From Williamsia limnetica (GTDB lineage: Bacteria; Actinomycetota; Actinomycetes; Mycobacteriales; Mycobacteriaceae), in assembly GCF_003217475.1 (NCBI RefSeq), contig NZ_QJSP01000004.1, forward strand, positions 186,001-250,000: a stretch of 64,000 nucleotides of DNA, written 5' to 3'. The position numbers and the translations under genes are program-made. The notes beneath the pieces are model-generated. The model searched no databases. It saw nothing but the letters and a program-made list of their open reading frames with translations, and was not told the origin of the DNA. Positions 32,603-36,211 of the stretch are shown one piece after another. Every line of letters starts with the position of its first letter. Position 1 is the stretch's first letter.

Positions 32603-32872
32603 ATGGTGAAAGTTGTCTCCACGTCGGCCACCCTTCCCGCCGCAGATGGCTTCAGGTCATCCCCCTGGGTTCGAACCACTCAGTTCCGCGTCCCGCTGGG
32701 CGAGCCCCTGTGGAACTCGGATCTGGAACGATTCACGTTCTTCGAGAAGGTCGCCCGGTCGGCGGCCGCGGCGCAGGGCCAGGAGTTCTCAGATCTGCTG
32801 GCGGTCGATGATGGTGCCCCCGGCCGTCTTTCGACGATTCGCTACCTCGTCGATGATCGGGCGTCCAGGTGA
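32603..32872 (+). CDS. Small unknown protein overlapping the ctaG-like gene end
   Basis: An 89-residue open frame starting 2 bp after the previous stop, so probably translated together with it. It begins MVKVVSTSATLPAADGFRSSP and contains LWNSDLERFTFFEKVARSAAAAQGQEFSD. Its third codon positions are GC-rich through about 32800, as expected for coding DNA here. Its last 140 bp run antisense to the 3' end of the CtaG-like gene. Family unknown. It may be a real small gene or a chance frame. Confidence 0.5.
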   Translation: MVKVVSTSATLPAADGFRSSPWVRTTQFRVPLGEPLWNSDLERFTFFEKVARSAAAAQGQEFSDLLAVDDGAPGRLSTIRYLVDDRASR

Positions 32873-33611
32873 GCAGGAGGGCGAGCGCGAGCAGGATCTC
32901 TGCGAGGTCGCCCCAGTAGTACATGAGGGTGCCCCCGTCCCGTAGTTCACTCGGCGGGGCATCCACGCGGACAAAGATCCCGGCGTACAGCATTTGCGCC
33001 AGCACCGCATGGCCGGCGATCGCGATCCCGAGGACGACGAGTCGCCGGGGTACCGATGGGCGGGACGGTCCGGGGTCTGGTCCTGCGATCATCCACGCGA
33101 ACAGGTATCCGGCGACGAAGAAATGCACGTGGACCGCGGTGTGCACGAGCGGGTATGAGTCGGCGAAGGCATACAGCGGCGTCAAGTAGAGCACCGCCAG
33201 CCCGCCCACATTTGCCACCAGCAGGGTGATCGGGTTGATGACCCACCGCAGCGGCTTCCAGGCGAGTGCATGAACGAGCGCTCGCCCTCGCCGGGCCGAG
33301 ACCGTTCGCAAGTACAGGGTCACGGGGGCGGCCATGACCAACGCCAAGGGCGCGAACATCCCGATCAGGAGGTGACCCGTCATGTGGTCGCCGAAGGACT
33401 CCGACACCGACGGGCGTAGCGCGACCATCAGGATGACGATGCCCACCACAAAGCTGGTCGTCCGCCAACGACTCCAACCGCGTGGCTCGCGCTGTTGTCG
33501 TGTCGCTACAACGAGGTAGACGATTGCAGCAGTGGCAAGCGCAGCGTAGGTGAACCACACGCCCCAGTCGGTGGAAGGCGCGGTGTTCGCTCCGTGGGCG
33601 AGGGCGTTCAC
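32733..33611 (-). CDS. CtaG-type cytochrome c oxidase assembly membrane protein
   Basis: A 292-residue caa3_CtaG family membrane protein with seven predicted segments. Markers are MTGHLLIGMFAPLALVMAAPV, then VHTAVHVHFFVAGYLFAWMIAGPDPG and AIAGHAVLAQMLYAGIF. The His-rich helices suggest copper or haem binding. The last 45 residues (after LLLTWTPDH) become Arg/Pro-rich with poor codon use, and this part overlaps the plus-strand frame at 32603-32872. That tail may not be conserved. It is coupled by ATGA overlap to the DUF2243 gene upstream. A role in oxidase or copper handling is inferred. Confidence 0.88.
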   Translation of the reverse strand: MNALAHGANTAPSTDWGVWFTYAALATAAIVYLVVATRQQREPRGWSRWRTTSFVVGIVILMVALRPSVSESFGDHMTGHLLIGMFAPLALVMAAPVTLYLRTVSARRGRALVHALAWKPLRWVINPITLLVANVGGLAVLYLTPLYAFADSYPLVHTAVHVHFFVAGYLFAWMIAGPDPGPSRPSVPRRLVVLGIAIAGHAVLAQMLYAGIFVRVDAPPSELRDGGTLMYYWGDLAEILLALALLLTWTPDHRRGSESSKDGRGHHHRPPADLRTPGPAPRPPTGRPSRRT

Positions 33612-34183
33612 GCCGCGTTACCCAGGTCCAAGGCCCGGGCAGATCGTTGGATCAGCCAGCCGACCACCACCAAGGCGAGTCCCAGTACCAGGAATCCGAG
33701 ATCCCACAGCGTCTGGTGCTCACCACTGCGGACATGGTGAATGCCGAGGACATGATGGTCGATGATGCCTTCGACCAGGTTGAACAGACCCCAACCGACC
33801 AGCACCCAACCCCACAGGGCCCGCGAAGTCCACACTCTTCGCCGTGCGGTGGTGACTCGCGAGTAGAGCAGCGCGAGCCCTACGAGTACTGCGAGCCAGG
33901 TGAAAGTGTGGAACAACCCGTCCCACACGGTGTTCATCTGCAGCCCGTGGACCGTGTCGGCCGGATAGCTGTCGACACCGATACGGTCGGTGTCGGTGCT
34001 GGTGAGCATGTGATGCCACTGCAAGATCTGGTGCAGCAGAATGCCGTCGACGAAACCGCCGAGACCGACACCCAGCACTATGCCGGGCAGCCTCAGTGAC
34101 CTCGGGTGGGCCTCCACCTCTCGATCAACGCGTACGTTCCTGCTGTCCCCGGCCGACTTCGTCATGCGAGGGCGAGTACCCAT
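33608..34183 (-). CDS. DUF2243 membrane protein with duplicated His motif
   Basis: A 191-residue protein with four predicted membrane helices. Two copies of one motif are visible: FVDGILLHQILQWHHM (residues 44-59) and LVEGIIDHHVLGIHHV (136-151). Together they give His51, 57, 58, 143, 144, 149 and 150, with a further His79 and His92. That is an obvious internal duplication, and the His residues sit at membrane ends, which suits a metal or haem site. The DUF2243 gene ends in a 4-bp overlap with CtaG. The start is M1 at 34183; M7 at 34165 is possible. Confidence 0.9.
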   Translation of the reverse strand: MGTRPRMTKSAGDSRNVRVDREVEAHPRSLRLPGIVLGVGLGGFVDGILLHQILQWHHMLTSTDTDRIGVDSYPADTVHGLQMNTVWDGLFHTFTWLAVLVGLALLYSRVTTARRRVWTSRALWGWVLVGWGLFNLVEGIIDHHVLGIHHVRSGEHQTLWDLGFLVLGLALVVVGWLIQRSARALDLGNAA

Positions 34184-34221: not shown

Positions 34222-34632
34222 TCAGGTGACGTCGGCGCCCTTGCGCGGTGGGCACCCATCGAGCCAGGCGTTCTCCGCCTCATCGAAGACCCGCGAACGG
34301 GCGAGGAAACGAACCCCTTCGGGCGCCTCCAGGCTGAATCCGGCTCCCCGGCCCTTGACCACATCAAGGATCAGCTGCGTGTGTTTCCACAGTTCATATT
34401 GGTCGCCCTGGATCCACACCCGCACGGCGGGTAAGAGTTCGGGCAACTCGATCTCGCCGAGTAGGACGTCGCGGCTCCCTACCCGGAACTCACCCGAGGG
34501 GTAGCACATGGGCGCGGATCCGTCACAACATCCACCGGACTGGTGAATCATGAGGCCGCCGTGGAGCTCCGACAACTTGGTCAGGAGCTCCACGGCGGAG
34601 TCAGTTGCGACGACTCTGTCTGTAGCAGTCAT
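34222..34632 (-). CDS. DUF779 protein (aldehyde dehydrogenase-associated)
   Basis: A 136-residue protein of the DUF779 family with GGLMIHQSGGCCDGSAPMCYP near the start (conserved Cys cluster), then LLPAVRVWIQGDQYELWKHTQLILDVVKGRGAGFSLE. It almost always accompanies aldehyde dehydrogenases of the ExaC/AcoD type, as here. The ATG at 34632 follows an AAGGA site 6 bases away, and a GTG one codon upstream is an alternative. It lies 55 bp downstream of the dehydrogenase gene, read in the same direction. The role is unknown; the Cys cluster may bind metal. Confidence 0.92.
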   Translation of the reverse strand: MTATDRVVATDSAVELLTKLSELHGGLMIHQSGGCCDGSAPMCYPSGEFRVGSRDVLLGEIELPELLPAVRVWIQGDQYELWKHTQLILDVVKGRGAGFSLEAPEGVRFLARSRVFDEAENAWLDGCPPRKGADVT

Positions 34633-34687
34633 CACAGGTCCTTAATTCGATGAAAACTCTTGCGGCTCTGCGGTAAAGGCTCTTCGA

Positions 34688-36211
34688 TCAGAAGAAGCCC
34701 TTGGCCTCCTGAGCGTAACCCACGAGCAGGTTCTTGGTCTGCTGGTAGTGCTCGAGCATCATCAGGTGGTTCTCGCGGCCGATACCGGACTGCTTGTAAC
34801 CACCGAAGGCGGCGTGTGCCGGGTAATCGTGGTAGGTGTTGGTCCAGACGCGACCGGCCTGGATTTCACGTCCCGCACGGTATGCGGTGGCACCGTCACG
34901 CGTCCACACACCGGCGCCGAGCCCGTAGAGGGTGTCGTTGGCGATGGAGAGCGCGTCGGCGTAGTCGGAGAACTTGGTCACCGACAGCACCGGGCCGAAG
35001 ATCTCTTCCTGGAAGATCCGCATCCGGTTGGTGCCCGCGAAGATCGTCGGCTGGATGTAGTAGCCGCCTGCGAGATCACCCTCCAGCTCGACGATCTCAC
35101 CACCGGTGAGCACCTGGGCACCCTCTTCTTTACCGATCGACAGGTACGAGGAGATCTTCTCGAACTGATCGTTGGAGGCCTGCGCGCCCATCATGGTGTC
35201 GGTGTCGAGCGGGTTGCCCTGCTTGATCTTCTTGGTGCGCGCCACGGCGAGATCGATGAAGTCGTCGTAGATCGACTCCTGGATCAGTGCACGGCTCGGG
35301 CAGGTGCAGACCTCACCCTGGTTGAGGGCGAACATCGTGAAGCCCTCGAGTGCGCGGTCGCGGAAGCCGTCGTCCTGCGCCATCACATCGGCGAAGAAGA
35401 TGTTCGGGCTCTTGCCACCGAGCTCCAAGGTCACCGGGATGATGTTCTCCGATGCGTACTGCATGATCAGGCGGCCGGTGGTGGTCTCACCGGTGAAGGC
35501 GATCTTGCGGATGCGGTTGCTCGAGGCGAGCGGCTTGCCGGCCTCGACACCGAATCCGTTGACGATGTTCAGGACGCCGGCCGGGAGCAGGTCCTTGATC
35601 AGGTCGACCAGGAACAGGATCGACGCCGGGGTCTGCTCGGCGGGCTTGAGGACGACAGCGTTGCCGGCAGCGAGGGCGGGAGCCAGCTTCCAGACGGCCA
35701 TGAGGATCGGGAAGTTCCACGGAATGATCTGTCCCACAACGCCGAGCGGCTCATGGAAGTGGTACGCCACGGTGTCTTCGTCGATCTCTGAGATGCCGCC
35801 CTGCTGGGCGCGGAGAGCGCCGGCGAAGTAGCGGAAGTGATCGATGGCCAAAGGGATGTCGGCGGCGAGGGTCTCGCGGACGGCCTTGCCGTTGTCCCAC
35901 GACTCGGCGACGGCGATCTTCTCGAGGTTGGCCTCCATGCGATCGGCGATGCGCAGCAGGGCGAGGGAACGCTCGGCGACCGAGGTCCGGCCCCACATCG
36001 GAGCGGCCTTGTGTGCTGCGTCGAGCGCCAGGTCGATGTCCTCAGACGTCGAGCGAGCGACCTCGGTGAAGGTCTTGCCGTTCACCGGGGATGGGTTCTC
36101 GAAGTACTGACCCTTCACCGGCGGCGTCCACTTGCCGCCGATCCAGTTCTCGTAGCGTGATTCGAAGTTCATCACGGCGCCTGGTGTTCCGGGATTGGCA
36201 TAAACGGTCAT
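34688..36211 (-). CDS. NAD(P)-dependent aldehyde dehydrogenase (ExaC/AcoD type)
   Basis: A 507-residue aldehyde dehydrogenase that oxidises aldehydes such as acetaldehyde to acids in the cytosol. It has [23 protein letters not shown], the Glu base in LELGGKSPN and the nucleophile Cys in [11 protein letters not shown]. The C-terminal half has [10 protein letters not shown] and [29 protein letters not shown]. Length and the DUF779 partner match the group induced by alcohols and acetoin. A 25-bp palindrome lies about 92 bp upstream of its ATG, and a GAF-domain activator of the type that often controls such genes lies at 41770-43086. Confidence 0.96.

Follow-up and report, generated by a model that had tools for sequence, protein, structure and literature searches.

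Conserved histidines and carboxylates in a duplicated DUF2243 membrane protein encoded beside a stand-alone CtaG

DUF2243 and the described copper-delivery proteins

Several bacterial membrane proteins have been connected with the supply of copper to respiratory oxidases. The C. glutamicum protein CtiP is a CopD-CtaG fusion (PMC9145763). The CopD-type domain of YcnJ and CtiP is a membrane domain with a functionally important His and has been linked to copper delivery to oxidases (PMC13344008, PMC9145763), while CtaM (DUF420), a four-helix membrane protein needed for oxidase function, has been proposed to take part in copper trafficking (PMC13344008, PMC8239418). The role of CtaG in CuB insertion is presented as tentative (PMC9145763), and the passages that treat the copper route to the oxidase in bacteria with Caa3_CtaG proteins describe it as tentative or not established (PMC9145763, PMC13344008). 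In the open-access text retrieved under the names DUF2243, COG4329, IPR018719 and PF10002, the family occurs only as a name in a list, where PF10002 is one of the 32 uncharacterised membrane families of a data set (PMC3879021). As far as searches of the open-access literature show, the residue set, the pseudo-symmetry and the genomic context of DUF2243 given below are new.

The window, that is, the whole 64,000-nucleotide stretch of Williamsia limnetica DNA analysed here, encodes an ordinary member of the DUF2243 family (Table 1). The gene starts with ATG, and its product matches PF10002 in Pfam over positions 2-139/140 (E 3.1e-51, 173.7 bits against a cut-off of 25). All of the family-conserved residues, D46, H51, H57, D88, H92, D/E138, H143 and H149, are present in the window protein; this set has been derived in the present alignments, not from Pfam. 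At an E of 0.01, the protein shows no Pfam match to CtaG, to CopD, to the CtaM family (DUF420) or to any haem family. The likeness of the locus to the CtaG/CtiP assembly factors lies in the partner gene, whose product belongs to PF09678 and keeps the family's conserved His and Asp residues, while the difference is that DUF2243 itself matches neither CtaG nor CopD and that the window CtaG is stand-alone. CopD has been compared by Pfam match only, and the duplication and the D/H motif are DUF2243's own. CtaM is also a four-helix membrane protein but belongs to another Pfam family. Upstream of DUF2243 (34222-36211, minus strand), a DUF779 gene adjoins an aldehyde dehydrogenase gene on the same strand.

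Table 1. Features of the DUF2243-CtaG locus in the window.
Feature	Position	Strand	Basis
DUF2243 (PF10002) protein, 191 aa, four predicted TM helices	33608..34183	(-)	ORF, Pfam, structure model
Repeat 1 motif, residues 44-59 (D46, H51, H57, H58), at the helix 1/loop 1 junction	34007..34054	(-)	alignment, profile, model
Helix 2 D88-G-x-F-H92 motif	33908..33922	(-)	alignments
Repeat 2 motif, residues 136-151 (E138, H143, H149, H150; H144 variable), at the helix 3/loop 3 junction	33731..33778	(-)	alignment, profile, model
D161, start of helix 4, repeat counterpart of D88	33701..33703	(-)	alignments, profile
GTGA overlap of DUF2243 stop and CtaG start	33608..33611	(-)	sequence
Stand-alone Caa3_CtaG-family protein (PF09678), 292 aa; family-conserved H76, H80, H163, H201, D235	32733..33611	(-)	Pfam, alignment, model

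An internal duplication with conserved histidines and carboxylates

The original prediction described DUF2243 as an internal duplication on the basis of an ungapped pair of motifs. The pair lies where it had been placed, with FVDGILLHQILQWHHM at residues 44-59 and LVEGIIDHHVLGIHHV at residues 136-151, and the duplication is borne out by profile-profile comparison of the two halves of the protein. Alignment of the halves of the single sequence gives a score of 56, which 3 of 5000 full shuffles and 19 of 5000 local shuffles also attain. The profile of one half aligned with that of the other gives a probability of 96, an E of 3.9e-9 and a score of 46.6, and the 58 aligned columns span both helices of the two-helix repeat unit. 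In controls with the columns shuffled in blocks of six, none of 100 profiles reaches 46.6, the best being 35.9. The repeat-equivalent pairs are D46/E138, H51/H143, H57/H149, H58/H150 and D88/D161, and the counterpart of H144 is not a His but Q52.

Conservation has been assessed in a 118-row alignment comprising the window, 80 close loci, 19 phylum-sample loci and 16 plasmid loci (18 rows, with L102 and L113 giving two rows each). A locus that represents the window again (L001) was left out, and 117 of the sequences are distinct. The His residues kept in most rows are H51 (116), H57 (117), H58 (113), H92 (113, with Ser in four rows), H143 (115) and H149 (117). The carboxylates are kept to the same extent, D46 in 116 rows, D88 in 117 and D161 in 112, and position 138 is E in 101 rows, D in 16 and a gap in one. 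H144 and H150 are variable, being kept in 81 and 98 rows; in the 80-row alignment of close relatives only, H150 is invariant and H144 is not. In a set of 44 divergent full-length rows, conservation reaches 90% or more at 18 positions, which include five His (51, 57, 92, 143 and 149) and two Asp (46 and 88). In the same rows, position 138 is D or E in 44/44, D161 and H58 are each kept in 37, H150 in 19 and H144 in 15.

Seven motif His had been listed, with an alignment suggested to see whether all are invariant. Five of them, H51, H57, H58, H143 and H149, are near-invariant in the 118 rows and are neither poorly conserved nor placed on opposite membrane faces, while H144 and H150 do not belong to the set. 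The list of seven was also incomplete, as it omitted H92, D46, D88, E138 and D161, all of which are conserved.

The structure model of DUF2243 (mean pLDDT 82, pTM 0.77) has helices at residues 31-53, 78-109, 121-145 and 157-180. Helices 1 and 3 end, and helices 2 and 4 begin, on the same side of the membrane. The mean number of K+R in loop 2 is 4.58 in the 80 close rows, against 0.97 and 0.69 in the loops on the His side, and 3.49 in the 37 other rows, against 0.59 and 1.22. By the positive-inside rule, this excess of positive charge in loop 2 indicates that the conserved His and Asp residues face outside. Conservation, the helix model and the charge distribution together support a conserved polar site on one membrane face, predicted to be directed toward the outer face of the membrane. 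Since residues 56-59 have a pLDDT below 50, so that H57 and H58 lie in or by a low-confidence loop, we infer rather than measure that the candidate ligands may share a single pocket. The pseudo-twofold symmetry suggested earlier is supported by the profile repeat, the residue conservation and the four-helix model.

The stand-alone CtaG and its pairing with DUF2243

The window CtaG scores 164.5 bits against a gathering cut-off of 27.7 for Caa3_CtaG (PF09678), and the only other Pfam family reported is DUF2070, below its cut-off. CopD is not matched by Pfam in the 292-aa protein, which is not a CtiP-type fusion. The protein was also considered as a true caa3 CtaG equivalog (TIGR02737) and rejected, with 18 bits against a cut-off of 279.35. 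The host genome holds a second CtaG domain (308 bits) in an 840-codon open frame that also contains CopD (contig C14) and resembles the C. glutamicum fusion. The window CtaG is a stand-alone paralogue beside this CopD-CtaG frame of the host. It starts with GTG, and the overlap with DUF2243 is GTGA rather than the ATGA first reported.

H76, H80, H163, H201 and D235 are retained in the paired CtaG proteins. The CtaG model has a mean pLDDT of 88. Over 70 rows, the mean K+R is 2.30, 6.06 and 1.34 in loops 1, 3 and 5 and 4.11 at the C-terminus, and 0.14, 0.44 and 0.11 in loops 2, 4 and 6. Read from an outside N-terminus with the positive-inside rule, this alternation places H76 and H80 near the outer face, which accords with the described placement of the potential copper ligands of CtaG at the outer side (PMC8239418). 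In a tree of 42 CtaG rows, the paired CtaG proteins, together with a Kocuria CtaG, split from two rows taken as CtiP-type at 100/100; the separation is a limited test because the outgroup has only these two rows, and one of them (L128) was assigned to this type solely on the length of its frame. The Kocuria CtaG comes from a Kocuria rosea plasmid (L137, 4000-5010), groups with the paired proteins of clade I and has no DUF2243 match in its locus. The stretch upstream of it holds what we take, by eye and from their motifs, to be transposase-like fragments, as if an insertion had replaced DUF2243.

CtaG lies directly downstream of DUF2243 on the same strand in 74 of the 80 close loci, 2 of the 19 phylum-sample loci and 5 of the 16 plasmid loci, and every CtaG match in the first 116 loci is downstream and on the same strand. 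The 94 DUF2243-CtaG pairs contain 91 distinct DUF2243 cores. Pairs occur in Actinomycetota, Bacillota, Deinococcota, Verrucomicrobiota and Pseudomonadota, while in one haloarchaeon SCO and CcdA genes, in place of CtaG, are found near DUF2243. Among 41 relatives (own genome included), DUF2243 is found in seven genomes, each of which has CtaG immediately downstream; searched with the window CtaG, the 41 genomes give their seven highest scores at these same paired genes. Of 396 genomes drawn evenly from the phylum, 32 have DUF2243, and eight of these have an adjacent CtaG (own genome included, one partial): 7/9 in the window's class and 1/23 outside it. Four of the 24 unpaired loci in this draw (L095, L172, L173 and L174) are fragmentary or reach the end of a contig, so that their neighbours are only partly visible. 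The predicted coupling of the two genes therefore holds in the close loci, in the seven genomes and in two clades of the DUF2243 tree, and does not extend to most of the phylum sample; pairing is common in some clades and missing from others.

In a 69-row DUF2243 tree, the paired rows fall into two distant clades. The first (10/12 rows paired) contains Bacillota, Deinococcus, Pantoea and some actinobacteria, and the second (29/32) actinobacteria, Sphingobium, Novosphingobium and Pelagicoccus. The pairing state changes five times on this tree, four of the changes being forced by well-supported branches. Because the tree has a midpoint root only, two origins and a single ancient pairing that was later lost in places are equally compatible with it. 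Of the close set, one quarter was used together with the named rows, and the tree omits copies of other loci (L001, L118, L129-L133 and L092), partial, broken or cut sequences (L113, L078, L095 and L116) and loci added later (L162-L174).

Pairs are found on plasmids of Rhodococcus, Streptomyces, Arthrobacter, Staphylococcus, Paenibacillus, Cytobacillus, Deinococcus, Pantoea, Sphingobium and Novosphingobium. The 16 plasmid loci were hand-picked for spread from 60 listed of 167 plasmid records with DUF2243, and L140 was then added; L134-L139 and L141 were picked out of 51 records for the similarity of their CtaG, so that the presence of DUF2243 in six of these seven is no free count. Other arrangements also occur on plasmids. 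A Halomicrobium (haloarchaeal) plasmid carries two DUF2243 genes in the same orientation, separated by an integrase gene (L102, 4010-7029). On one rhizobial plasmid (L103), DUF2243 is followed by a small ORF and then by an FAD-oxidoreductase fragment in place of CtaG; on another (L113), DUF2243 is split over two frames and followed by a small ORF and a succinate-dehydrogenase subunit, with no CtaG. An identical DUF2243 core is shared by a record titled Kitasatospora arboriphila NRRL B-24581 (L008) and a contig of the window's genus (G403:C3); the record may be mislabelled.

Neighbouring genes and the possible role of the pair

No third conserved gene is seen beside the pair, as the largest family among the 133 predicted flanking ORFs of the close paired loci has at most three members. 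Six of twelve plasmid pair loci (L101, L112, L114, L134, L140 and L141) hold MBL-fold genes and, variously, genes for TauE, rhodanese, DsrE, TusA, DUF302 and CsoR-type or ArsR-type regulators. The ArsR-type regulator of the Sphingobium locus is nearest to BigR, at 73.8 bits, below the curated cut-off of 155. Cytochrome c oxidase is the point at which sulfide blocks aerobic respiration, and in the presence of sulfide respiration is sustained by the BigR operon (PMC5823870).

One sulfide-type gene is enriched near the close relatives. The query, a Rhodococcus protein, has the Pfam domains Lactamase_B and Rhodanese, and no NCBIfam model scores above its cut-off for it; from this architecture we take the protein to be persulfide dioxygenase-like. 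At a threshold of 150 bits, MBL-rhodanese-like genes are present in 5 of the 80 close loci (Planobispora, Actinoplanes, Planomonospora, Aeromicrobium and Pelagicoccus) against 0.053 expected (Poisson 3e-9, a guide only, since the 41 background genomes differ from those of the 80 loci). Matches in L056 (84.8) and in plasmid locus L114 (82.9) fall below the threshold. The expected rate comes from 14 places at E 1e-40 in ~196 Mb (41 genomes, sizes rounded) and is firmer than a first control with at least two sulfide-gene families, in which 9/80 close loci and 9/240 overlapping control windows were positive; that control is weak, as it depends on one control locus (L161) and on queries drawn from pair-side loci. 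The sulfide-gene queries have no match within the 64-kb window, and no MBL-rhodanese match is found in the own genome at E 1e-40. Of the seven paired genomes among the 41, only G406 and G417 hold an MBL-rhodanese gene, ~40 kb and 1.7 Mb from the pair. As a result, the sulfide link is a minority feature and is not directly applicable to the Williamsia locus. An unpaired DUF2243 lies beside a sulfite-oxidase-type molybdopterin protein in L084 and beside a TauE exporter in L083, so a sulfur context is also seen in unpaired lineages.

A duplicated, conserved His/acidic motif in a CtaG-adjacent gene makes DUF2243 a good candidate for an unrecognised part of a copper pathway. The SCO, TlpA and CcdA genes upstream of DUF2243 on a Natrinema plasmid also speak for this reading. 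The protein would be a four-helix membrane protein built from two copies of a two-helix unit, with pseudo-symmetric candidate ligands at its outer face, D46/H51/H57 and D/E138/H143/H149, to which D88/H92 and D161 may be added. Judged from sequence, metal binding by DUF2243 is quite likely, most likely of a transition metal, and copper is probably, with less confidence, the metal bound. PmoC-type copper sites combine an Asp with two His in membrane helices; the Asp/His likeness to DUF2243 is an analogy only. DUF2243 would most likely pass the metal to the co-encoded stand-alone CtaG, or hold or reduce it for CtaG, whose own conserved His and Asp likewise map toward the outer side, and CtaG would then help to metallate a haem-copper oxidase. 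The chances that the role of DUF2243 depends on CtaG appear evenly balanced, and physical contact between the two proteins and an oxidase as the target are presumed. The pair would form an accessory, laterally moving module, separate from the CopD-CtaG fusion of the host; in some hosts it accompanies sulfide-detoxification-type genes, where the oxidase would be under attack. This account as a whole, an outward candidate metal site serving CtaG in an accessory oxidase-assembly route, is plausible and stands about as good a chance of being right as of being wrong.

The main rival is that DUF2243 is itself an enzyme, membrane-bound and metal-dependent, such as a di-metal hydrolase or oxidase with a lipid, a quinone or a sulfur compound as its substrate, and that CtaG supplies its metal. 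Mixed His/carboxylate sets are typical of catalytic metal sites, and the DUF2243 site is mixed in the same manner. The conserved residues are also about equally strict in the rows without an adjacent CtaG, which argues that DUF2243 has an activity of its own that needs no adjacent CtaG. The MBL-fold, rhodanese and TauE neighbours, and the sulfite-oxidase-type genes in one locus, would suit an enzyme as well. However, no conserved candidate substrate gene accompanies the pair, the flanking families having no more than three members, and we regard this alternative as possible though rather improbable.

A haem protein with bis-His ligation in a four-helix bundle, with a part in oxidase assembly through the handling of haem or the transfer of electrons, would account for the four helices and for the symmetric His at the helix ends. 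A haloarchaeal locus, on a Natrinema plasmid, also has cytochrome-biogenesis genes (SCO, TlpA and CcdA) upstream of DUF2243, on the same strand and 439 bases off. Haem is made less attractive by the carboxylates D46, D88 and D/E138, which are as conserved as the His; moreover, the His are mostly found at the ends of helices and in loops, not as mid-helix pairs, and no Pfam haem family is matched at an E of 0.01. Haem binding is therefore unlikely. A zinc or purely structural site, with the CtaG pairing due to co-transfer of unrelated genes, would fit the variable flanks and the plasmid-borne pairs of several phyla but is very unlikely in view of the pairing in two deep clades, the constant orientation of CtaG in the first 116 loci and the co-occurrence of the two genes in exactly the same 7/41 genomes.

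With an outward metal site serving CtaG as the preferred reading, a wider and distinctly more tentative one may be drawn for the family. DUF2243 could represent an unrecognised class of membrane metal proteins with a duplicated His/carboxylate site, which together with the stand-alone CtaG would make up a mobile system of two genes that serves to assemble or protect haem-copper oxidases when sulfide is a stress or copper is short. The neighbours of the MBL-rhodanese and sulfide type suggest sulfide stress on respiration as a condition under which a phenotype may be sought, and the pair of DUF2243 and stand-alone CtaG, present in several phyla, is a compact setting of two genes for testing where CtaG obtains its metal.
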